64,000 bases of DNA, from contig JAJEKV010000072.1 in NCBI GenBank assembly GCA_021234155.1, positions 6,305,676 to 6,369,675 on the forward strand, in the 5' to 3' direction. The notes below the pieces were generated by a model that saw only the letters and a list, made by a program, of their open reading frames with translations, was not told where the DNA came from and made no database searches. The position numbers and the translations under genes are program-made. Below are positions 1,086 through 22,970 of the stretch, piece by piece (the stretch's first letter is position 1; each line of letters begins with the position of its first letter). This DNA is from Isoetes taiwanensis. Lineage: Eukaryota; Streptophyta; Lycopodiopsida; Isoetales; Isoetaceae.

Positions 1086-1616
1086 ATATAATACGTGAAA
1101 ACAATTTAATTGACCATTCACCGGAGGAGGTTATCCACATGGATTAAAACCCTAATAGGGCAAATTTATACATGTATACGCCAAGTTCAGGGAATGCTTT
1201 CTTGAAATCTTGTTTTCCACGTTCTTTATCCCATTTATTTTAGGCGCAATATGAGAAAGCGGGTTGAAGCTTGCTCATGATGCTCTGAGGGTTTACAAAG
1301 ATTTTTTCGGTGCTTGGCGGTCCCGGTGATGGAGTAACGACCTCCGATATTTAGCATCATGGGTACGCTTCGCTATGTTAACCGTTGCTAAAAGCGACCT
1401 TGGGGTATGCCAATTTTGACATGATTTTTGCCATCATAGCTTTTTGATGATAAGAAACTTCATCTTGTTTGCTCGTTATATTCCTTACCTTTGTTACCTG
1501 GCGCGGTTTATCGCTTCGAGCCTTGTAAAGGTTCTTGGTTTTGAAACTTTTATTGTAAAGTTGTTTATAGTTCGTCACGGGAAGAAAGCTAGGTAATCGT
1601 TTGAGTCCATAGAGTA
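1086..1616. other. Non-coding stretch
   Basis: No gene or repeat recognised. Small ORFs on the minus strand here run into the TRIM next door and have no motif. Confidence 0.5.
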
Positions 1617-1621
1617 TCTTA

Positions 1622-1797
1622 TGTTGGAATGTTGGAGCATGTGTAATGGGCACACATGAAGAATGACTTCAGTGGAGGAGTGCCGAAAGCCCATCAAAGG
1701 GCCGTGCTTCGGTGGTAGAGTACTTGGCTTGCAAGCAAAAGAGGTCTGGGTTCGATCCCCACTGTCCACCCAATCATAGGAGACTCATTTCTCAACA
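1622..1797 (+). repeat. 5' LTR of the TRIM
   Basis: A 176-bp direct repeat with TG..CA ends. It matches 1983-2165 with scattered substitutions and short indels, for example AAGAATGAC here against AAGAAATGAC there. It is preceded by target duplication TCTTA. Confidence 0.9.
1699..1772 (+). other. tRNA-like sequence in the 5' LTR
   Basis: The order of elements is that of a tRNA: a D-arm with TTCGGTGGTAGAG, an anticodon-like loop CTTGCAA (TGC, alanine-like) and a T-arm with GGGTTCGATCCCC. The 3' part TCCACCCA would pair only partly with the 5' end. GGTTCGATCCC is a good RNA polymerase III B box. Imperfect stems make a working tRNA unlikely. An internal promoter for element transcription is more plausible. 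Confidence 0.7.
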
Positions 1798-1813
1798 TGG
1801 TATCAAGCCATGG
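1798..1813 (+). other. Primer-binding site of the TRIM
   Basis: TGGTATCAAGCC follows the LTR end without a gap. Many plant LTR retrotransposons use TGGTATCAGAGC, complementary to the initiator-Met tRNA 3' end; here one base is missing. Confidence 0.8.
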
Positions 1814-1974
1814 TCCCAAGTTGAGGGTGCTTAACCGCCCGGGATAATCCCGATGGTGAAGGGGTGAGAATGAGCAAAAGCTTGGCGATGGAAAGCCCAA
1901 CTCCTGATGGTGGAGTTGCAGGGAGGGAACATGTGGATTGTGGTGAAGGGCTGGAATGGATTGGTGTGCCCATT

Positions 1975-1982
1975 AAGGGGAA
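1975..1982 (+). other. Polypurine tract of the TRIM
   Basis: AAGGGGAA lies immediately before the 3' LTR, the expected place for plus-strand priming. Confidence 0.75.
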
Positions 1983-2165
1983 TGTTGGAATGTTGGAGCA
2001 TGTGTAATGGGCACACATGAAGAAATGACTTCGGTGGAGGGGTGAGAATTTCTTGAAAGCCCATCAAGGGCGGTAGCTTCGGTGGTAGAAGTACTTGGCT
2101 TGCAAGCAAGAGGTCCTGGGTTCGATCCCCTGTCCACCCAATCATAGGAGACTCATTTCTCAACA
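1983..2165 (+). repeat. 3' LTR of the TRIM
   Basis: A 183-bp copy of the 5' LTR ending CTCAACA, followed by target duplication TCTTA at 2166-2170. It carries the same tRNA-like sequence. Confidence 0.9.
2068..2140 (+). other. tRNA-like sequence in the 3' LTR
   Basis: The second copy of the tRNA-like block, 73 bp, with GGTGGTAGAAG, CTTGCAAG and GGGTTCGATCCCC, ending TCCACCCA. The acceptor ends GGGCGGT and TCCACCC pair at most positions. As in the first copy, the A- and B-box regions are preserved. Confidence 0.7.
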
Positions 2166-2170
2166 TCTTA

Positions 2171-3814
2171 ATGATCACATTTTGCTTGTGTGAATGATAT
2201 GCATGTAATCTTATGTCTTGTTTAATTTCTTGCTTGCACTCATTTCTAATTTATGCTTCATGCTAGAGTGGCTTAGCCCCGATGCATGCATGTATTTTAC
2301 ATTCCACTTCATTGATTTTATCGTTGTATCTTGTTGATAGGTTCTTTGAGACTTCTAGCATGCAATTTTAGAATTAAGTGTTGTTGGATTACATATTGTA
2401 TTAGGTTCTTGAGGGAGCAAACTCTTATAAGCGTGGAATTTTTCAGAATTGGATAAGAAGATCCTTGGCATTGTCTACATACATCATTGCAAATCAGAGG
2501 TAAAATGAATTATTTACTATTTCACTAGCTGTACAAGGCTAGAATTTGCATAAAATTTGCATAGAGTTGATAGTTGCACTTTCGAAATAAATAAAAGGAC
2601 GGGTTTTCTATTATACTAGTCGCCTTTCTCTGTATTTTCTTGTATGCAATGTAATAATTTCTGAACCTGGGCAAAAGTTAAGCTCATCATTTTTTGTAGC
2701 TATTTGCTTTGCTTATATACCTTCTATGTCTCTGCCATTGCCAATGCGTAGAGTCACGTTCTTGAATCGTAGTAAACTTAAACCAAAGCTAGCAATAATC
2801 ATTTCCTCGCATTTCTTTGCTTGCCCCAAAAGCCTTGTTATCGTCCTTTTCCCCGAGCATTCACAAAATTGTGAGTTTATGCGGTGTGGCTCTGCCATGA
2901 TGTCTGCCGGACACGCCATTCTATTACTATATCTTTATAGATAAAGAAATAAAAACAGTTGTAGTTGGAATAAAAAGAAATGAAAGGAAACTAGAATTTA
3001 TGTCTTTATTTGAAAAATATTTAAGTGTTGACAAGGAATTGAGCACTGAATTTGCATTGTCAGCATGTATGTGTGCTCGCATGCTTTCATGGAAGCAAGC
3101 GGAATCTTTTTACTATGTTTTGGAGCTTCTGTCATCTTTTTACATAAACCATAGAGGATCTTGTTCATATTGGGTAGATTGTTATCATTTTGATTCTCTT
3201 GTATTTGCTTTTAATTGAAGATCTTTTATCTTGGGTATATCTAAATGATGTCTTGACAATCAATAGTTTGTGATATTTTGTATAGGGACGAGATTCTAGA
3301 GTTTAATTTTGTATAAGGACGAGATTGCAGAGTTCAATGATGATATATAGTTTGTATAGGGATGGGTCAATTGGAATTATCAGGGTTCAAATCCCTGAGC
3401 ACTCTTTATATGCACTAATATGCATCTATATAGTTTATTAGATATTCGATATCAATTCTCATTGCTTTACAACCAGATGTTTTAGTGAAATAAACTCCTT
3501 TTGAGATTAACAATAAAATGTCAATATGATATGGAATCAACAATTATTAATTTGTTGTATAAACTTATACCAATTTATGCTTTAAAATAACAATGGAAAA
3601 TTAACGATTTTTTGCAAAAACTAACCCCACTCACGTAATAGAAAACATTAAGAATTGGATGGAGAAACTTATAACAATTATTATCTTAAAAGAAGACAAC
3701 AGTTTTCAAGTTGACCATACCTTATTACATTTATTCAGTTATGCCCTCGGACACACACTTGACATGTATATATACATTGATGTATACTTGTACAATTTGA
3801 CAGCATTCTTATTA
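2171..3814. other. AT-rich non-coding stretch
   Basis: No gene recognised. A short local duplication around 3285-3365 repeats TTTGTATAGGGACGAGAT-like text about three times. Small ORFs at 2713-2944 overlap on opposite strands and carry no motif. Confidence 0.45.
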
Positions 3815-4720: not shown

Positions 4721-5535
4721 ATAGTGAAATCACCAGCATCATCAAAGGATTGAAATGTAGAATAACATCTAATCTATCTACTTAAACATCCATAGTTAGG
4801 TTCTTTCGTTAGAGCTTGTGATCTCAGAATCTATAAGGCCTCTAAGGCTGAACTAACATGCTAAACCAGCTCATTGCCGAGCTAAAGGCGGCATTGCACA
4901 ACAGAATGACCATTTACCTGATCCCTGACTCGCTCCAACTCCTCGGAATGCGTCCATGCCTTCATTCCGGCTGAAGACGGCTGCTGCTGGAAGATCTGTT
5001 GTGCAAATGCGGCTTATCGGAGCCTGCCAAAGCGAACTAGAATTTTGGCTTGGTCGGAATAGCCGATCGAAGGAAGCCCTAAATGCGAAAGAAGAAGGTT
5101 TAGGGTTTAAGGAAAGCCCTTATATGGGAACTTTTAGGGTTAGGTTTAGAAGGGATCCAGCAATGGGTTATTGCCACTTGGCAAGGGGGGGGGGGTTTAG
5201 TTGTATATGTTTATTACACATGCACAACTTACGAGGTTGCCCCCTAGGTGCAACGCTTTACGTATCGCCAGTACTTGTCATGATGACATGTACGTGTGAC
5301 GTTGCAGTATAATATATGTATTCAGATTGTATATTATATTGGAACATCACAACAGTGCCAAGCATAATCAGGGCTAAGGCTGAGATCAAAAGGAAAGGGC
5401 AAACCAGTCTGAGACATAAATCTGAGATATAATCTGGTGACATAACCTGGCAAGACAATGGCAAGACCTGGTGGAGATTACTCTGGGGACCAAGTTTCAT
5501 GGCCAGAAGACCACCCATGTTTTCCAAGGAGAGCA
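4721..5535. other. Non-coding stretch, no supported gene
   Basis: A 118-codon plus-strand ORF at 4956-5312 has no recognisable motif and ends in low-complexity text with a run of nine or more G. I see no other support for a gene. Confidence 0.35.
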
Positions 5536-14590: not shown

Positions 14591-14594
14591 CCCA

Positions 14595-14619
14595 AACAAG
14601 ATTAAGTATTAAACGGGAG
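14595..14619 (+). repeat. Left terminal inverted repeat
   Basis: Starts AACAAGATT and ends ATTAAACGGGAG. A degenerate direct copy of its inner word, AAACGAGAGC, follows at 14630-14639. Confidence 0.7.
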
Positions 14620-14947
14620 CAAATCATTGAAACGAGAGCAAAAGGAATATTCATAAAGATTCCCCTTTTTTTTTACGAAAAAGGGGGTAAAATGAGGTTA
14701 AAAAAAAAAAAGATGCATGAAATTCTATTTTGACCCCCCAAATGACTAAATTTTTTTTTTTTATGAAGGAATTGACTTTTTTAAGTGTCACTTTTCTTAG
14801 CAAAAAGAATGTTCTTAAAGTATGTTTTAAGAGAGAAACTCTAATTTCAGAGGATAAAATATTTAACAAAAATTGAAGTAAGTCCATGAATTGAAACTGT
14901 AGTATTCTCAAAATTTGAAGATAGAATCTTCATATTCACATCAAAAT
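14620..14947. other. Left subterminal region
   Basis: AT-rich with A and T runs and no ORF of interest. It separates the terminal repeat from the C-terminal coding end of the minus-strand gene. Confidence 0.5.
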
Positions 14948-17900
14948 TTACAGGTCTTTTTTTCTAAGACTTCGATTATGTGCAAAAGTGTGAGGAGTGA
15001 TGAGAGAGGGATCCGGGGCGTCCTCATGTTCATTTATGCCATCGTCATCACCTTCACTTCTTTCAATCACTTTCGAGGAAGTGCTTGAGTTATCTTCCTC
15101 ATCACTATCAACAGGCGGTGAAGCATTGTCACCACCTTCTTCATCATCTTCTTCATAATTACAAGCTTTTTTAAGCAAATTGATAGTCTTCCGCGTGAGG
15201 CGATTGTCGATTTCAATTTAAAATCATAGCACAATATAGTCCGCGTCATTAAGGTTCACTTTCGTCCCTACAACCCACCTTCTTGGACTTTCTCCCTTTT
15301 CCTTGGCTTCTCATTTCTAACTCATATCTACCTTCAAAAGCATTTTACGGCGTGTTGCAAGCCAATGAATCTTGAGTTTAGTGACTAAGCCTTCCTCCTT
15401 GATCGTGTCAAGCACTTTTATCCGATCGAGCGACCTTTGTCATCCTCCTCGGTCGGAAGAGCAATTAGCATACCTTTGGTAATTTACGTGATATTACCTT
15501 GGGGCTCATTCTGTACGTCTTGGTCCGGGTACATGACTCGGTCCTCCTCGTCTTCTACTTCGGTGCAAATGTAGCACCGCTTGGACCCGCTTGGTCTTTG
15601 GGGGTTGATGGAAGGTGTTAGGCCATTGAAATGGTTCTTGCAAGCTGCCTTAGAGCTATGTTTTGTACAACAATTTTTCGTTAGAAAGAAATTACTCCAC
15701 CACATCCGATCTTCTTCTAAGAAGTACTTAAAGCTTTGGAAATTCCATTTTCAATGGCTTTTAAGGATGACTCTGGGTACTTTTCTTCCTTGGACTCCTT
15801 AGGATTTTTGAGAGGAAGTTGCTCAAAGACGCTTCTATGAAGGAAGTGTCCGGAATATATTTAAGGAAGCGTAATCCCTCCGGGCGGACTCCAGGTCCTT
15901 AGTTGTGGTATACTTCTTCCCCAGAAGAAGCTTTGGCCATCCTTCAAGTAGAACTTGATATGATGTTGAAAGGTGAGATCATTCAACTTGTTCCGCCTTT
16001 TGTTCTCTGTTTGAACGTTGAGAAAAAACAAACTCTCTGAAATCGCAGCCTCTTTAAGAAGATGGAATTCACCGGAGTAGGAGTGTAAGAATCTTCAATA
16101 ATTCGAACTAAAAGAAGGAAGACGAAAAGCCTTCTTCCTTCTAAAGGCGCCTGAAAAAATCTCTTTGAACATTTGGTCAATCTGATCATGAGTGTGGCCT
16201 ACAAGTAAGAAACCGAGCTTCACTTTTCTAAAGATCCCTAGCTCCACTAACATGGCACAAGATGCAAAGAGTGTTTGATTCTTGTTCTCCCTTGTAGTAT
16301 TGTCAAGTTGCGGATAAAAGCACCGGGTGGTAATTGCTCTTGCTCGCATGGGACCTTGTTAAGAATTGTAATTGTGAGGTTGGGGTCACCATGCAAGTTT
16401 GGATACGTCAAAAAAAACTTTGCACCTTAGACTTCCTTTGAAGACCATAGCTCCTACAAGGTGGACCTTAACAAAACATTCCTCCGCACATCTTTTTAGG
16501 AATGTTCAAGAAATGTGGTAGAGTTGTTTTTTTGTCCATTCCATCAATCACAAATGGACATGTATTGCGGTGGACGTTCAAGAGCTTTTTTCTATGCTTG
16601 GCAAGCTTTCTTCTCTACTCTGCTTGTTGTTCACGATGTGCCGCAAGGTTCCGTTGCACAATATCCTGTAGAAGAAATCAGGTCAAAGCATTTTCTCTAA
16701 AACAAGTGAGAGATTGGAGAACATGAACTTACTTCTTTCGACCTCTCGTCTTTTGCGGTTTCTCGTTGACTCTTTAATTCTCGCACACCTCGAGCAAACA
16801 AACATTCTATGTTTTCTAGGAATTTTCACAAGACCTAATTCACTTTTCCACACACGGTGAAGTGTGAGTAAGAGATGTCTTTGGCCGAGTGCAAGTCTCT
16901 TTGTACTCATTAAAACATCTTTTTTGTGATGTTATCGGTTAAATGATACATGTTCTTTGTTAGGTAGCTTCTCACATGTTTCTCTAAAATATTTCTCCAT
17001 CCAGACACAAGAAGAAAGGGCATGCATGGTTACAACTCTTCTTGGTCCACAATGATCATCGATTGCTTTTGGATTTTTGTCCGATCTTTTGTGTATTCTA
17101 GACATTCTTGTGGACCCTAAACGGTGGACAACCATAAAACATTTCGGCAAACTTCTTGGCGGTTAATGTAGTGCAAGAAGGTGTTCTTGGCTGCAGTCTT
17201 ACATGATAAGCTAAGTAGGCATTCAGTGCGCCAATGTCATGGAACTGTAGTTGTCTCTAACTGCCGTAATTTAGCCATGTTAAGTCCGTTGATGCAACCC
17301 AATGAGCAGCAGATTTAGTTCTCAAAAGTCTCCTCATTTTTCTGTTCATCCATAAGATTTCTTCTTCTTGCAGAGGAGCAAGCCCTCAAACCAAAATCCA
17401 CCTTGAATTTCTTTGAAGATTGGCTTGAGAACATGTAATCTCTTTGTTCCTCGTTGGTGTCTTCATCTTCTCGTGAAACTTCTACTCTGGGGGTGCCTTC
17501 CTCTCTCCGAGTGGTGTGCTTGTAGAGGAAAAGCAGACCACGTGAAGTTGTTCCCTAATAGGCGGGGGGTGCGGTGTTAAAGGGTGGTGATGGCCCATAA
17601 GAGGTTGTGGCATCACCGTTCTTGTACCATCTTGAAAAGGAGTTCTTGCAAACATCTCCTTTAGAGCGGACTGAATTCTCGCAAATCCATGTGTCACAAC
17701 CGTTGTTGTGTGAAGAGGAGTGCATCTTTGGAGCTTAGGTCCTCATTTGTAGTGAAGTCCCGTGAGAGAAATTGTAGTGAATCTCACAGCCTTACGTGTT
17801 TTCTGTGTTCCTTGTATTTTGCACGAAGGAGGCGAAACTACAAAAGGGGGGGGTAGCTTGTTCTTGAGCACCCTTTGTTGTGGAGCTTCTGCAGGTCCCG

Positions 17901-18230
17901 GGGATGGAACAAAGGGTGGTGGCAGCCCGCTCCGAACTAGTGGTGATTCTTTGGAAGGAGATGCCAGTGTGCTGTCTACAGGACTTGGTGACGGTTGGAA
18001 GGGTGGTGGAAGTCTGTTACGTGCTGGACTCGGTGTGTCTTCGAGAAGCAAGAACGATGAAGCAGAGGTAGGAGTCGGAGAATTCCGGTCTTCAGAAGAA
18101 CGACGTTGGTCCCAAGCGTGTCCTCGTAACTGCGATTTAGCTTGAGACAACGAAAGGTGGTGGAAGTTTGTTGACGGCGGTTTGTCATCTTAAGAACTCG
18201 CAAAAAGATTGTAGAGTTTAGATAATGTTT
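14948..18230 (-). pseudogene. DUF7869-like, RNase-H-type transposase remnant
   Basis: The minus strand reads, from 18230 down: a proline-rich N-terminal region with about four repeats of LPPPF-x-x-S (17.8-18.2 kb); a helical segment with WMEKYFRETCEKLPNKEHVS (about 17.0 kb); VWKSELGLVKIPRK followed by MFVCSRCARIKE, a zinc-finger-like C-x2-C (about 16.8 kb); FVIDGMDKKTTLPHF (about 16.55 kb); LDNTTRENKNQ and FLLVGHTHDQIDQMF (16.35-16.15 kb); and an acidic Glu/Asp/Ser tail (14948-15178). DGMD, DN..ENKN and GHTHxxID in that order are hallmarks of a widespread repeat-associated family I know as DUF7869-like; the number is from memory. Their spacing suits an RNase-H fold with acidic catalytic residues. 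Many frameshifts break the gene. It is divergent from the methyltransferase gene. Confidence 0.7.
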
Positions 18231-18239
18231 CTCTCCGCA

Positions 18240-18605
18240 GCTTTTCTTATTCGAATACAAGCCCGCCTACTAAAAGTAGAACTTCCCCGCAACAATTAAG
18301 CGAAAGGCAAACTAAAAGCTATTCCCAAATACACTAGAGCGAAACAAGAAGGCCAAACGTATTCCACTTCACATAGAAAACGAAAGCAAGACGGAATGGA
18401 CACCTTTTAAAAGGAAATTTTGGCGCCTTGGCCATGTATTCCATCCGAAATTTGAAGTCGCCACGCGCCAAAATATAATATAATTCGTGAGCTGTATTCC
18501 GATACTCATAGAGAAAACATGGAGAGGTGAGTAAGAAAGTACAAGGTACAATCATTTGTGTGTTCCGTTTTTATTCCCATACATTACGCTTTCCTTCCCT
18601 AAAAA
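18240..18605. promoter_or_regulatory. Divergent intergenic region with decayed palindromes
   Basis: This region lies between the 5' ends of the two genes and holds degenerate relatives of the array motif: TTATTCGAATACAA (about 18247), CGTATTCCACTTCACA (about 18359) and TGTATTCCGATACTCA (about 18494). It presumably contains both promoters, but I cannot place a TATA box or start site. Confidence 0.4.
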
Positions 18606-18821
18606 GTGTATTCCGTATCACTTTCGCCGAGGGAGATTTAATGTGTATTCCGAACACTTTCGCGCCGAGGAAGGCGTAAGTGTATTCCGGAATACACTTC
18701 GCCTTGGAGGAAAGGCGAAAGTGTATTCCGGAATACACTTCGCCTTGGAGGAAAGGCGAAAGTGTATTCCGGAATACACGTTCGCCTTCCCTCAAAGGCG
18801 AAAGTGTATTCCGGAATACAC
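18606..18821. repeat. Palindrome array 1, period about 41 bp
   Basis: The 18-bp perfect palindrome GTGTATTCCGGAATACAC occurs at 18680, 18721, 18762 and 18804. Two half-decayed copies start at 18606 and 18643. The spacers are themselves foldbacks: TTCGCCTT and AAGGCGAA flank a 6-7 base centre. The array is thus an alternation of two palindromes, placed just upstream of the methyltransferase gene. The core TTCCGGAA also fits the TTCnnGAA layout of heat-shock elements, so regulatory use cannot be excluded. Regular spacing and perfect symmetry favour a protein-binding iteron array. Confidence 0.9.
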
Positions 18822-18994
18822 ATTCGTGTTCTTTTGTTTTGTAAGTTTGTTTTTCCGTGATTTTTGTAGTGACTTTAGGTGTTTTTTTGCTTTTTAAAAC
18901 TTGTTTAGACCTGTTTTTTTGTCAAGATTGCAGTGTTGTTTTGGCATTTTGGTCCTCTTTTTGCCCTTGTTTTTTCCTTTTCGCAAGACATTTT

Positions 18995-19008
18995 GTATTC
19001 TGGAATAG
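18995..19008. repeat. Single palindrome-family site
   Basis: GTATTCTGGAATAG lies between array 1 and the first recognisable exon, probably in the leader or a leader intron. Confidence 0.6.
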
Positions 19009-20426
19009 TTTTTTGCCACTGCTTTCTCTAACAAGATCGTGTTTACACACAATTTGCACAGACAAGAAGGCAGCAAGAAACAACACAAGAGGACCGTTAA
19101 AATCCCAACGAAACCGCACCCACAGAGAAGGGTTGAGGAGACATCTGCCGCCATCTACGAAAACTTTCAAACTCAATGGTTTTTTACAAGGGGTACTTCT
19201 GGAAAGTACAGCACACTTACTTTCCTACATGTCTGTCGGAGTTCTGGAGCAAAAGGTACGATGAGAGGGAATTTGTTTGCATGGGCACCATCCAAATCCG
19301 TGGAGTGAAGTAGGTCGGGGAGTCCGGCCAAATGAGGGAGACCGCCTCTTTTCAGACATCCCAAGGCTTTATTCATGTTGATGAATCCTATTTTAGAGTG
19401 GTGAAAGTAAATCCTCGTCCTCCAGACAAGTATGTTGCTCACTACATCAAGAAGAGGTCGCCGATTGCCATCATCAACTATGTTCGGAGCTAATAACGAG
19501 CGAAGACTTCCCCTACAAATGAAGTCCGAGGCAGGAAGAGGATGAGCAACCGAGCCGGCAGTTCCTCATCACAACTGAGAGTCCATCACAACCCGGGAAA
19601 AGGCCACCGGCCACCACCACCAAAGAAGCGGCCAAGGGACACAATTGTCGCTAAAGAGCCTAAAAAAAGCGACGGCCTTAATTGCAGCAGAGGATATTTC
19701 GAGGAACCTAAGAAGAAGAAGGGGAAGGGTAAAGCACCCGTGTTGCTATAAAGGAAAAAAAAAAGTTGACAAGACAAATGAAAAGATGGAAGAGATTAAC
19801 TTTTGCACAAGTTTGTGCAAGGTGTAATTTATTTGCCGATCCACTTCAATGAAGCTTCCACCGAAAAAATGAAGCGGGTGAAAGGCCACTTTCGTGTTCG
19901 CAAAATTTATGCCGATCACTTAAGGAACTCCGAAGACGTAATAAGGAGCAATCCAAATGCTCATGTGGCCCCAATAGTTGTCCTTGTTGACAGGGGAAGA
20001 GTACAAAACCCCCAGACTATGACGAGAAAAACGCAGACCTACACTCACTACGCCTTGGGAGGCAATCACGACTTTAAGGCAAGAAGGCAACTTTATAAAG
20101 AGAAGAAGAACCCGAGGTACCTCTCCGGCCCTCATATTTGTTTCTTTGGTCTTACCGATGAAGAAGCGAAAATCGTTGCCAACACCCACAATGCTGACAA
20201 CGAATATAAACTAAAGATGAGCTTCGTCGACAAGATCCGGTTCATGCACAGGGAGTACGTAATATTCAAGGAAAAGTACGGTGAGGACCTGAAGAAGCCA
20301 GCATTTTCCTTGGAGCTTAAGGAGGCGTGTGCTATTGAATGCTGCCTGAAATATGACGAGGCCAACAAAAGGCAGTCTCTCATTGGCCACGACAACTGGT
20401 TCCAGTTAGCTTTTAGAGATGGCAAG

Positions 20427-20488
20427 GTAAGCACAAAATGTATTCCAGAATAGCAAATCAACTATTTAACGTGAATCTTCTTGAACAG
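20427..20488 (+). other. Intron 1 of the methyltransferase gene
   Basis: GTAAGC...GAACAG, 62 bp. It joins the ParB-like exon to IWELQDQIFTMFERG and contains the palindrome-family site TGTATTCCAGAATA at 20439-20452. Confidence 0.7.
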
Positions 20489-20783
20489 ATTTGGGAACTC
20501 CAGGACCAGATATTTACAATGTTCGAGCGAGGGGAGTTAAAGAGCAAGGGAAAGGAGACAGCTAAGAAAAAAAGCTCAGACGTACCCAAAAAAGAAATGA
20601 CCATTACCGCTCTCAAGGAAATGCGAAGTTTTCTCCGACCTTGAGCTTCTCGAGCAGCTTCTCCAAAAAGTTGTTGATAAGGAGTTTAGCCTAGAAGAAA
20701 TGTCAAAGGAATTACACAAGTAAGTTCTCTGACACAAACATTAGTTATTGCATGTTAGATTCCCAAAAACATCGGCGTGGCTA

Positions 20784-20964
20784 GTGTATTCCAGAATACA
20801 CATGCCTTTCTTTACACGGGCAATGTGTATTCCTAATACACATTGCTTGTCTCTAGAAAGGCATTGTGTATTCGGAATACACATTGCCCGTGTGAAGGAA
20901 GGCATGTGTATTCCGGAATACACATTGCTCCTCTGAATGTTGGCCTGTGTATTCTGGAATACGC
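20784..20964. repeat. Palindrome array 2, period 41 bp, itself inverted
   Basis: Five copies of the GTGTATTC..GAATACAC palindrome start at 20784, 20825, 20866, 20906 and 20947, a spacing of 40-41 bp. Their centres differ (CCA, CT, CG, CCGG, CTGG) while the arms are kept, as expected under selection or recent spread. The spacer after copy 1 is nearly the reverse complement of the spacer after copy 3, so 20784-20923 can fold into one large hairpin. The array lies inside intron 2 of the methyltransferase gene. Confidence 0.9.
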
Positions 20965-21052
20965 ATGCGTTCCTTTAGAGAAGCAATGTGTTTGTCCTGT
21001 AGTAGAACTATTTTCTGCATATTGTTTCGAGGTAGCATCACAAGTTAACCGG

Positions 21053-21072
21053 TTTGTATTCCAGAATACAAA
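21053..21072. repeat. Single palindrome in intron 2
   Basis: TTTGTATTCCAGAATACAAA: perfect 9-bp arms around CA, with T replacing G in the outer arm. Confidence 0.8.
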
Positions 21073-21296
21073 TAGCTTGACTTGTATTTGTTTTTTCTTT
21101 TACGCTTGCCTTCATTCTTTCGTTTAAACTCATTGTTTCCTTAACGCCTTGCGACCAAAAAACGCCATAACATGTCAAACATGTTTGATGGAGCAACTAA
21201 ACGTCGACACATGGGAAAGGTGCAAGGAACTCTACCCAATTGCCACATCCGACGAAATGCGCATTGTCCAATATTCACCAAATTTTGAGGGGCTGG

Positions 21297-21364
21297 GTAA
21301 TTACACTTAGAATTCCTTCTCTCCGCACAAACTCTTCGACAAATTGTTGTTTTGTTTTTCTTAG
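21297..21364 (+). other. Intron 3 of the methyltransferase gene
   Basis: GTAATT...TTCTTAG, 68 bp, between SPNFEGL and EQKKNKDLPEG. It contains only a half-site, AGAATTCC. Confidence 0.65.
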
Positions 21365-21810
21365 AGCAAAAGAAAAATAAAGACCTACCCGAGGGCTTTA
21401 TGAATTTGGTTAGAACAGCACGGGAAGAGAGGTCGTTAGCTGAAAGAAGAACTGTTGAGCCAGAACCATCCGACTACGAGAGATTCTGCATGTTTGATCA
21501 AAACAATTTATATTCAATCATTCATGGTGATTGCAACGAACCTTGTCGAACGGTTAAGCCACGGGAGGACTTTACTTTGGTTATTGCTGATCTTCCCTAT
21601 GGGTTTAAGCTTAAAGACGGCAGATATCGGCGACCAGCCCTTCAAATTTTCAGAGTTTAATGCTTTTATTGAAGGAATTAAGCGATCTCAACGGCCAAAC
21701 ATTGGCGTTTGAATTCACGCTCCATTCGAGCATGCGATCAGCTTGGTGGAATCAGCTTTCAAAAATCACTTTGGTTCTCCGGTTCGCAGGGATATGAAAA
21801 CCTTTGTTCA

Positions 21811-21942
21811 GTAAGTCTTATTCCAGAATACAATTACTTTTCTCTTTAATTACGTAGTGTGTATTCCGGAATAGTATTTCCTGTTTCTGGTTTTCGAAGT
21901 GTTTTCTTGTTTTTGCTAATATCACTTTATATGCTTCACTAG
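21811..21942 (+). other. Intron 4 of the methyltransferase gene
   Basis: GTAAGT...CACTAG, 132 bp, between KTFVQ and YKTNINYHGGG. It contains two palindrome-family sites: TTATTCCAGAATA (21818-21830) and GTGTATTCCGGAATAG (21859-21874). Confidence 0.75.
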
Positions 21943-22606
21943 GTACAAAACGAACATCAACTACCATGGTGGAGGACCAAGGTTGCTCAGCAAGGTAGAG
22001 TACCTTCATGTAGCTTATTGGAGTTTTGATGGGAAGAGGACCATGGATCACTTTAACACTGCCGCCTGTCAAAACTTTTCAAACGTCCTAGAGTTTCCAG
22101 CAGTCTTACAGAAATTGCAGGACCCAAGTGCACAAGGCAGGATTGTGAATCACTACCAGAAACCACAAAAGCTCATCAACCATCTCCTGGACATGTTCTC
22201 GCGGCGTCCGGAGATTGGGTACTTGATGCTTTCTCCGGGTTCTAGTACTACTATCGCATGTGCACTTAAGAAGGGCCGCAAGCGTAGCCGTGGATATTGA
22301 TAAGGAGGTCGTGCATTTTGTGAAGATGAGACTGGCTGCCTTACCTACTTTACCGGATGAAAATCGGAGTTAGGGGCCAAGTCTTCATCCGATTATGCTA
22401 AACTAACGTCCTCGAGAGATCTGACCTCCATTCTCCACTCACTAGACGATGAGGCAACCTTTGCAGAGCTTAAAGAAGTAGCTTTAGCTACCATTCCGAA
22501 GAACAAGGAGGATACAAAACTCAAGTCTCCAACAAAGGAGCGGATAGAAACGAGAAGGACGAGATGGCGTAGAGCAAAAAAAAGAATGAGGAGGACTATG
22601 ATGTAG

Positions 22607-22941
22607 ATCTTTGACTACTGCATATTAAAATTATCATTATTTATTACAATGAATCTTCAATATTGATGTACAACAATTTATTAAAAACATAGTACTTTTT
22701 TTTCCTTTCTATTCTGGTGCTTGTTTTTTGTAATGCTTTCAGTCTCTTCAAGTCTATGCCTAAATTTTGCTATTTTTATGATTTGTGTTTCATAAGTACA
22801 AAGTTTTCGTCTAATAATGGGCCAAAATGGCATGAAAAAAAATGCAAACCTCTAGAAATTCTTAACAACTATCAAAAAAGGCTTATTTTAGAAACTTGGT
22901 GTTTTTTTAAAGGGAATCTTTGAAACGGGAGTGATGCAACA
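22607..22941. other. Right subterminal region with end hairpin
   Basis: AT-rich and without a gene. AAACGGGAGTG at 22923-22933 is the exact reverse complement of CACTCCCGTTT at 22940-22950, so the right terminal repeat can form an 11-bp hairpin with a 6-base loop. The left end lacks this. Confidence 0.7.
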
Positions 22942-22966
22942 CTCCCGTTTAATTTGCAATCGTGTT
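22942..22966 (-). repeat. Right terminal inverted repeat
   Basis: Read on the minus strand it begins AACACGATT and ends ATTAAACGGGAG. It matches the left end at 20 of 25 positions. CCCA follows at 22967-22970. Confidence 0.7.
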
Positions 22967-22970
22967 CCCA

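Follow-up and report, generated by a model that had tools for sequence, protein, structure and literature searches.

A DNA transposon of Isoetes taiwanensis encloses a predicted ParB-like/methyltransferase gene and carries family-specific palindromes

The window analysed here is a stretch of 64,000 nucleotides from the plant Isoetes taiwanensis (assembly GCA_021234155.1, contig JAJEKV010000072.1, positions 6,305,676 to 6,369,675). Positions 14595–22966 of the window comprise a single terminal-inverted-repeat DNA transposon, a degenerate copy of 8,372 bp whose ends are common to 12 further two-ended copies. The left terminal inverted repeat (14595–14619, plus strand) and the right one (22942–22966, minus strand), recognised as a pair and by copy comparison, are imperfect and 80% identical over 25 nt, with AACAA at the element termini. 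A CCCA target-site duplication lies on either side, at 14591–14594 and 22967–22970, identified from the sequence and from copy comparison and, on the right, from empty sites as well. Between the ends are a DUF7869 gene on the minus strand, the presumed transposase, and a spliced plus-strand gene for a predicted protein with a ParB-like domain and a methyltransferase, the two separated by a divergent promoter of ~330 bp (transposase start placed by eye). The new observation is that of family-specific 14-bp palindromes, one word per element family.

We searched the plant's own genome (1.658 Gb) at the DNA level with a 2.8-kb query from the methyltransferase half. Among the best 40 scored of 2,048 candidates, 33 rows, the window's own included, span the query from base 1–6 through its last base, and there are partial matches elsewhere. 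Nine close copies (L005–L013) were taken with their flanks, together with seven divergent ones (L014–L020). BLAST homology to the window begins within 11 bases of 14595 in 8/9 close copies and ends within 5 bases of 22966 in all nine. L009 has no left end; in its first 1046 bases, other sequence stands in for roughly the leftmost 560 bases of the element, and its right end is exact. Both ends are present in the divergent copies L014, L015, L017 and L018, the right end only in L016, and neither was found within the stretch taken for L019 and L020. Both ends are found in 13/17 family loci, window included, and all 13 enclose both genes; the 4-bp target duplication is exact in 12 of these 13 and matches at 3/4 bases in L011.

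When the flanks of the window's element were joined with a single CCCA, they matched 40/40 scored copies of a long interspersed nuclear element (LINE) across the junction at 90–92% identity (best 40 of 471 candidates), with 36 matches spanning all 204 bases and the other four beginning at base 4–6. The two LINE pieces are therefore one copy, interrupted when the element jumped into it. A sequence-only reading of this DNA had described the imperfect ends, the CCCA flanks and an insertion inside a LINE reverse transcriptase, and all of these are borne out; the genome search that it proposed gave 16 family loci beyond the window, many copies with open frames and LINE empty sites. It had also assigned the methyltransferase to the element, which holds, since the gene lies within the inverted ends, not outside them, in 13/13 two-ended copies; a captured flanking gene is rejected on the same ground.

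This family combines inverted ends with a fixed-length target duplication, the marks of a terminal-inverted-repeat DNA transposon, and a chance inverted repeat was considered and rejected. EnSpm/CACTA elements have CACTA termini and a 2–3 bp target duplication; membership is ruled out here by the AACAA termini and the 4-bp duplication. A viral or Polinton-like identity was likewise rejected: between the ends we saw no additional long conserved frames, no search for capsid or polymerase having been made. A 4-bp target duplication, as found here, is given for Sola2 in the available part of Bao and Jurka 2013 (PMC3627910); the element is not assigned to the Sola superfamily.

The DUF7869 gene occupies 14985–18188 on the minus strand (limits approximate, by eye) and is broken in the window copy. 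Part of the DUF7869 domain, with the GHTHDQID motif, lies at 16095–16358 (minus strand, Pfam E 1.2e-24), confirming the DUF7869-like gene that had been read from the letters; the scores reach E 6.6e-51 in L011 and 2.5e-54 in L021. By eye, the protein carries VVIDGMDQ, LQLDNTTRENKN and GHTHDQIDQMF. It is taken as the presumed transposase because of its position and copy number, the genome holding 9,906 DUF7869 candidates, of which the best 150 were listed. An AlphaFold model (predicted local distance difference test score, pLDDT, 37.6) is of too low quality for an RNase H fold to be confirmed from it, and acidic motifs were placed by eye only. We found no mention of DUF7869 in the literature, most subscription papers lying outside coverage. 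A conserved block, KGMLVAV...FWLAKVLDVVREEG...LKVHWMR, was observed at the C-terminus of this protein in L021 (C-terminal third of 1543–3342, minus strand), L006, L011 and L014; by eye it looks like a Tudor or chromo-barrel chromatin reader, and it has no Pfam match.

The gene on the plus strand spans 18519–22614 with six inferred exons, placed by splice consensus and by comparison with homologous frames that are open in sister copies; its frames are broken in the window. The inferred first exon, ATGGAGAG (18519–18526), is followed by GTGAGT in 10/10 close copies (the window and L005–L013), with a variant in L020. This pattern was not found in L014–L019, L014 having by eye a similar ATGGACC followed by GTAAGC. 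The acceptor of intron 1 was found by pattern in 5/10 close copies, and, in the copies inspected, the later introns are bounded by GT...AG, except at the beginning of exon 4, which was not fixed. Exon 2 (19062–20426) encodes an N-terminal domain, a basic low-complexity stretch and the ParB-like domain, which are followed by the methyltransferase, with motif IV (ADLPYGF or ADIPYGF; ADLPYGF in the exon at 21365–21810) and then motif I and the stop codon (21943–22614; FSGSGTT in sister copies, broken in the window). Motif IV before motif I is the beta-class order. The N-terminal domain is conserved over ~110 residues in the first open frames of L048 and L045 (about 19062–19480 in the window) and gave no Pfam match in the one copy tested, L009.

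The methyltransferase scores only E 0.096 against Pfam in the window because its frames are broken, and sister copies reach 1.1e-17 and 3.6e-19. The latter value is that of the joined exons of L014 against N6_N4_Mtase (70 bits vs a cut-off of 26.7); in the same joined exons, 245 query residues align with CcrM (E 1.3e-11). Among solved relatives, the highest scores belong to DNA adenine methyltransferases, and RNA and other methyltransferases match more weakly. By sequence, the enzyme is predicted to be a beta-class amino-methyltransferase, closest to CcrM. Like CcrM and other beta-class N6-adenine methyltransferases, it has motif IV followed by I and aligns over most of the domain; unlike that group, which has DPPY, it has DLPY or DIPY, a fused ParB-like domain and a spliced gene.

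Of the ParB-like and beta-class methyltransferase gene that the sequence-only reading had called, the methyltransferase stands firmly and the ParB-like part is supported less strongly, with moderate confidence. The NCBIfam ParB model TIGR03764 gave E 1.4e-4 on L009 and 0.045 on L046, all far below its curated cut-off, and no match on L021 and L048. A profile–profile comparison with seven ParB sequences gave E 8.5e-5 and a probability of 60%, against E 0.17–0.78 for ten controls (two other element alignments and eight shuffles). There was no ParB match in Pfam, PDB profile searches with both protein alignments returned nothing meaningful, and the ParB part had no phage match and no PHROG. For the methyltransferase, there was no confirmed relative among 33 stretches of prokaryote genomes; IMG/VR gave five weak relatives (best segments 23–40%), and among 901 phage records the 15 listed are 22.6–27.1% identical. 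Two phage methyltransferase regions had no adjoining gene annotated as ParB. With such relatives absent or weak, no donor can be named.

The window element contains 12 sites within two mismatches of GTATTCCGGAATAC, and 12/12 lie in inferred methyltransferase introns: five in intron 1 (18682–19008), one in intron 2 (20440–20453), four in intron 3 (20786–21069) and two in intron 5 (21818–21874). The transposase half and the neighbourhood of the ends have none. All 17 loci of the window's family have 5–18 sites each at the same threshold, L016 without an exact one, and block-shuffled controls have 0 or 1. Several copies have one or two palindromes just upstream of the inferred first exon, within the divergent promoter.

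Four loci of two other families (L021–L024) contain no GTATTCCGGAATAC-type site and carry words of their own on the methyltransferase side, GTATGAATTCATAC in L021 and L022 and GTATAAATTTATAC in L023 and L024. Single GGTATAAATTTATACC and GGGATTAATTAATCCC palindromes were seen beside the own word in L021–L022 (about 4772–4794 and 5348–5372), perhaps relics of a changed recognition word. We then took 1.35 kb at each of 20 more places chosen among the listed DUF7869 matches, and 15 have repeated perfect 14-bp palindromes of one kind per place: GTATAAATTTATAC in 10, CTATGCGCGCATAG in four and GTATTCCGGAATAC in one. Exact genome counts of word and reversed word are 12,556/17 for GTATAAATTTATAC, 3,720/0 for GTATTCCGGAATAC and 1,551/0 for CTATGCGCGCATAG; the control palindrome GTATTGGCCAATAC, composed as GTATTCCGGAATAC, occurs three times. 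All four words share the form [GC]TAT-N6-ATA[CG], and we label families by the palindrome core, TCCGGA for the window's family and GCGCGC, GAATTC and AAATTT for the others. Spacings peak at 42/41 bp in the window's family, 32, 30, 21 and 41 bp in AAATTT, 40 bp in GCGCGC and 100–115 bp in GAATTC. The commonest, 41–42, 32 and 21 bp, come close to whole turns of the helix. Perfect palindromes without a loop would suit recognition by a dimeric DNA-binding protein more than the formation of RNA hairpins.

Both genes are kept by selection and co-inherited in four families. L021–L024 are four of the top five DUF7869 matches; a clear ParB-methyltransferase, likewise placed and oriented and 44–66% identical, is present in two of them, and that of L024 is decayed. 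Among five further methyltransferase sides, the gene is present in L046–L048, the open frame of L045 is by eye the N-terminal domain only, and nothing was found in L049. The methyltransferase C-terminal exon has 3,647 genome candidates, the best 150 scored all at least 77% identical and many with open frames. By eye, at least 17 methyltransferase and DUF7869 matches pair on opposite strands, 5.5–6.2 kb apart start to start, a lower bound because the lists cover 150 of 3,647 and 150 of 9,906 candidates. Trees were built from 25 rows of the transposase core and 13 rows of joined methyltransferase pieces (L005, L007–L013 and L016 absent from the latter, L011 from the former and L017 from both). 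Both trees split TCCGGA and GCGCGC from GAATTC and AAATTT, and each family with more than one row forms one clade, with support of 87/91 to 100/100; L024 is a long branch, and the transposase bootstrap had not settled. The AAATTT label first needed five changes, since the AAATTT rows are interspersed with the five places without palindromes, and in the tree comparison these places were counted with AAATTT.

The methyltransferase gene is under purifying selection between subfamilies. In the C-terminal exon, L006 compared with L014, L015 and L020 gives proportions of nonsynonymous (pN) and synonymous (pS) differences of 0.072–0.077 and 0.72–0.78, and the motif IV exon gives 0.137 and 0.84 for L006 vs L014, synonymous sites being near saturation between the subfamilies compared. 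Close or broken pairs, such as L006 with L009, have nonsynonymous-to-synonymous rate ratios (dN/dS) of 0.5–1.1, values to be expected when copies decay, and some ParB-exon pairs have 0.3–0.65. The transposase half of L014 is ~88% identical to L005/L006 and its methyltransferase half ~68–72%; for L006 vs L014, pS is 0.245 in the transposase core and about 0.8 in the methyltransferase half. Because identity differs between the halves, they seem to have been exchanged by recombination within the family, near the divergent promoter.

The gene pair is not unprecedented. The sequence-only reading knew of no described element with it; in the available part of a 2025 paper (PMC12477816), the Sola1-1_Ec32 element of the brown alga Ectocarpus encodes a 1104-amino-acid protein with ParB-like and N4/N6 methyltransferase parts on the strand opposite its transposase, and self-binding and self-modification are already proposed for it. 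The algal element resembles the plant one in having a ParB-like and N4mC/N6mA methyltransferase gene opposite the transposase within a DNA transposon, and differs in belonging to Sola-1 and in its length of 21.5 kb, a comparison by description and not by sequence. No mention of palindrome arrays was found for Sola1-1_Ec32 in that part of the paper. Similar proteins of green and red algal transposons are cited there as Iyer 2011 and Petroll 2025, their similarity being according to that citing passage only. By the same descriptions, the plant gene fits the algal ParB-methyltransferase accessory class in layout, as one gene on the opposite strand, the ParB part of the fit being moderate and the single transcript being deduced from splice sites. 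Mariner elements of algal viruses, as given in the available part of Bao and Jurka 2013 (PMC3627910), are likewise eukaryotic DNA transposons with a methyltransferase; unlike the plant element, they have other transposase and methyltransferase types and an endonuclease partner. Among titles and abstract openings, with most subscription papers outside coverage, we found no land-plant case and no family-specific palindromes, an absence that shows little.

As had been supposed from the letters, the element may methylate its own DNA or that of the host. With about an even chance of being right, we propose that DUF7869 is the transposase and that the ParB-methyltransferase recognises the palindrome of its own family, where, or near which, it would methylate adenine (or N4-cytosine). 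The mark would label the element as self, so that the divergent promoter and the methyltransferase gene might stay active, or be self-limited, against host silencing. Self-marking would explain the joint divergence of recognition words and proteins, and the placing of the words within the methyltransferase gene of the window, not at the ends, favours control of expression or silencing over a direct role in cutting. More tentatively, each family may have a private epigenetic address system in the manner of bacteria, in which ParB-methyltransferase and 14-bp palindrome co-diversify and the protein binds and methylates (N6-adenine or N4-cytosine) its own copies only, outside the host 5-methylcytosine system. 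The ParB-like domain and the perfect palindromes in arrays may be likened to bacterial ParB/parS systems by analogy only.

Several observations weigh against self-marking at the palindromes. Five of the 20 DUF7869 places have no repeated palindromes in the 1.35 kb taken; their transposases are of the GTATAAATTTATAC clade, and they may be broken elements, because the one whose methyltransferase side was taken (L030/L049) lacked that gene too. L023 has palindromes, but the 9,951 bases taken there contain no methyltransferase match, GTATGAATTCATAC is modestly above its reversed-word control (64 vs 11), and only four families were sampled, GCGCGC with one methyltransferase row. The ParB match is weak by sequence, and neither Foldseek nor VIA gave a significant match for the ParB-like AlphaFold model (pLDDT 58.5), ParB being absent from the rows listed. 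Other common spacings (28–30, 48 and 112–115 bp) are not whole turns, and tandem duplication may partly account for array spacing. Lastly, the palindromes follow the transposase tree equally, so that they might be bound by the transposase or by a host factor.

This last point is the main rival, which we consider unlikely: the N-terminal region of the transposase, or a host transcription factor driving the divergent promoter, would bind the palindromes, and the methyltransferase would act elsewhere, for example on element ends or freshly replicated DNA, as Dam does on bacterial elements. The grouping of palindrome kinds on the transposase tree agrees with such a binder, as does the strong divergence of the transposase N-terminal part between families (36–52% identity), whereas the confinement of the window's sites to inferred methyltransferase introns speaks against it. 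It is less probable still that the substrate of the enzyme is host DNA at large, RNA or protein, the palindromes being unrelated promoter or small-RNA features; the weaker matches to RNA and other methyltransferases would allow this, but the solved relatives that score best act on DNA adenine and the words differ between families together with the protein. A passenger gene without function for the element is very improbable, for although breaks occur in many single copies, that of the window among them, and dN/dS reaches 0.5–1.1 between close or broken ones, purifying selection between subfamilies is strong, catalytic motifs are conserved, many copies have open frames, and co-inheritance with the transposase over four families hardly suits a chance passenger.

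Apart from the element, 28 matches to LEAFY, a gene family that marks the plant lineage, were seen in all, in keeping with a plant host. Two loci have both exons matched (C907:50543582-50545048 and C1059:8322247-8323663), besides many partial LEAFY-like fragments, and it is possible that mobile elements spread these pieces.

These observations bear on the possible use of adenine or N4-cytosine methylation by mobile elements of plants and other eukaryotes. The family-specific palindromes are candidate target sites, and they offer, within a single genome, thousands of such sites with four defined sequences, linked to an enzyme under selection; the hypothesis proposed for the algal element thereby becomes directly testable. 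If true, a eukaryotic transposon whose recognition words change together with its protein would contain something akin to a restriction-modification or partition system.

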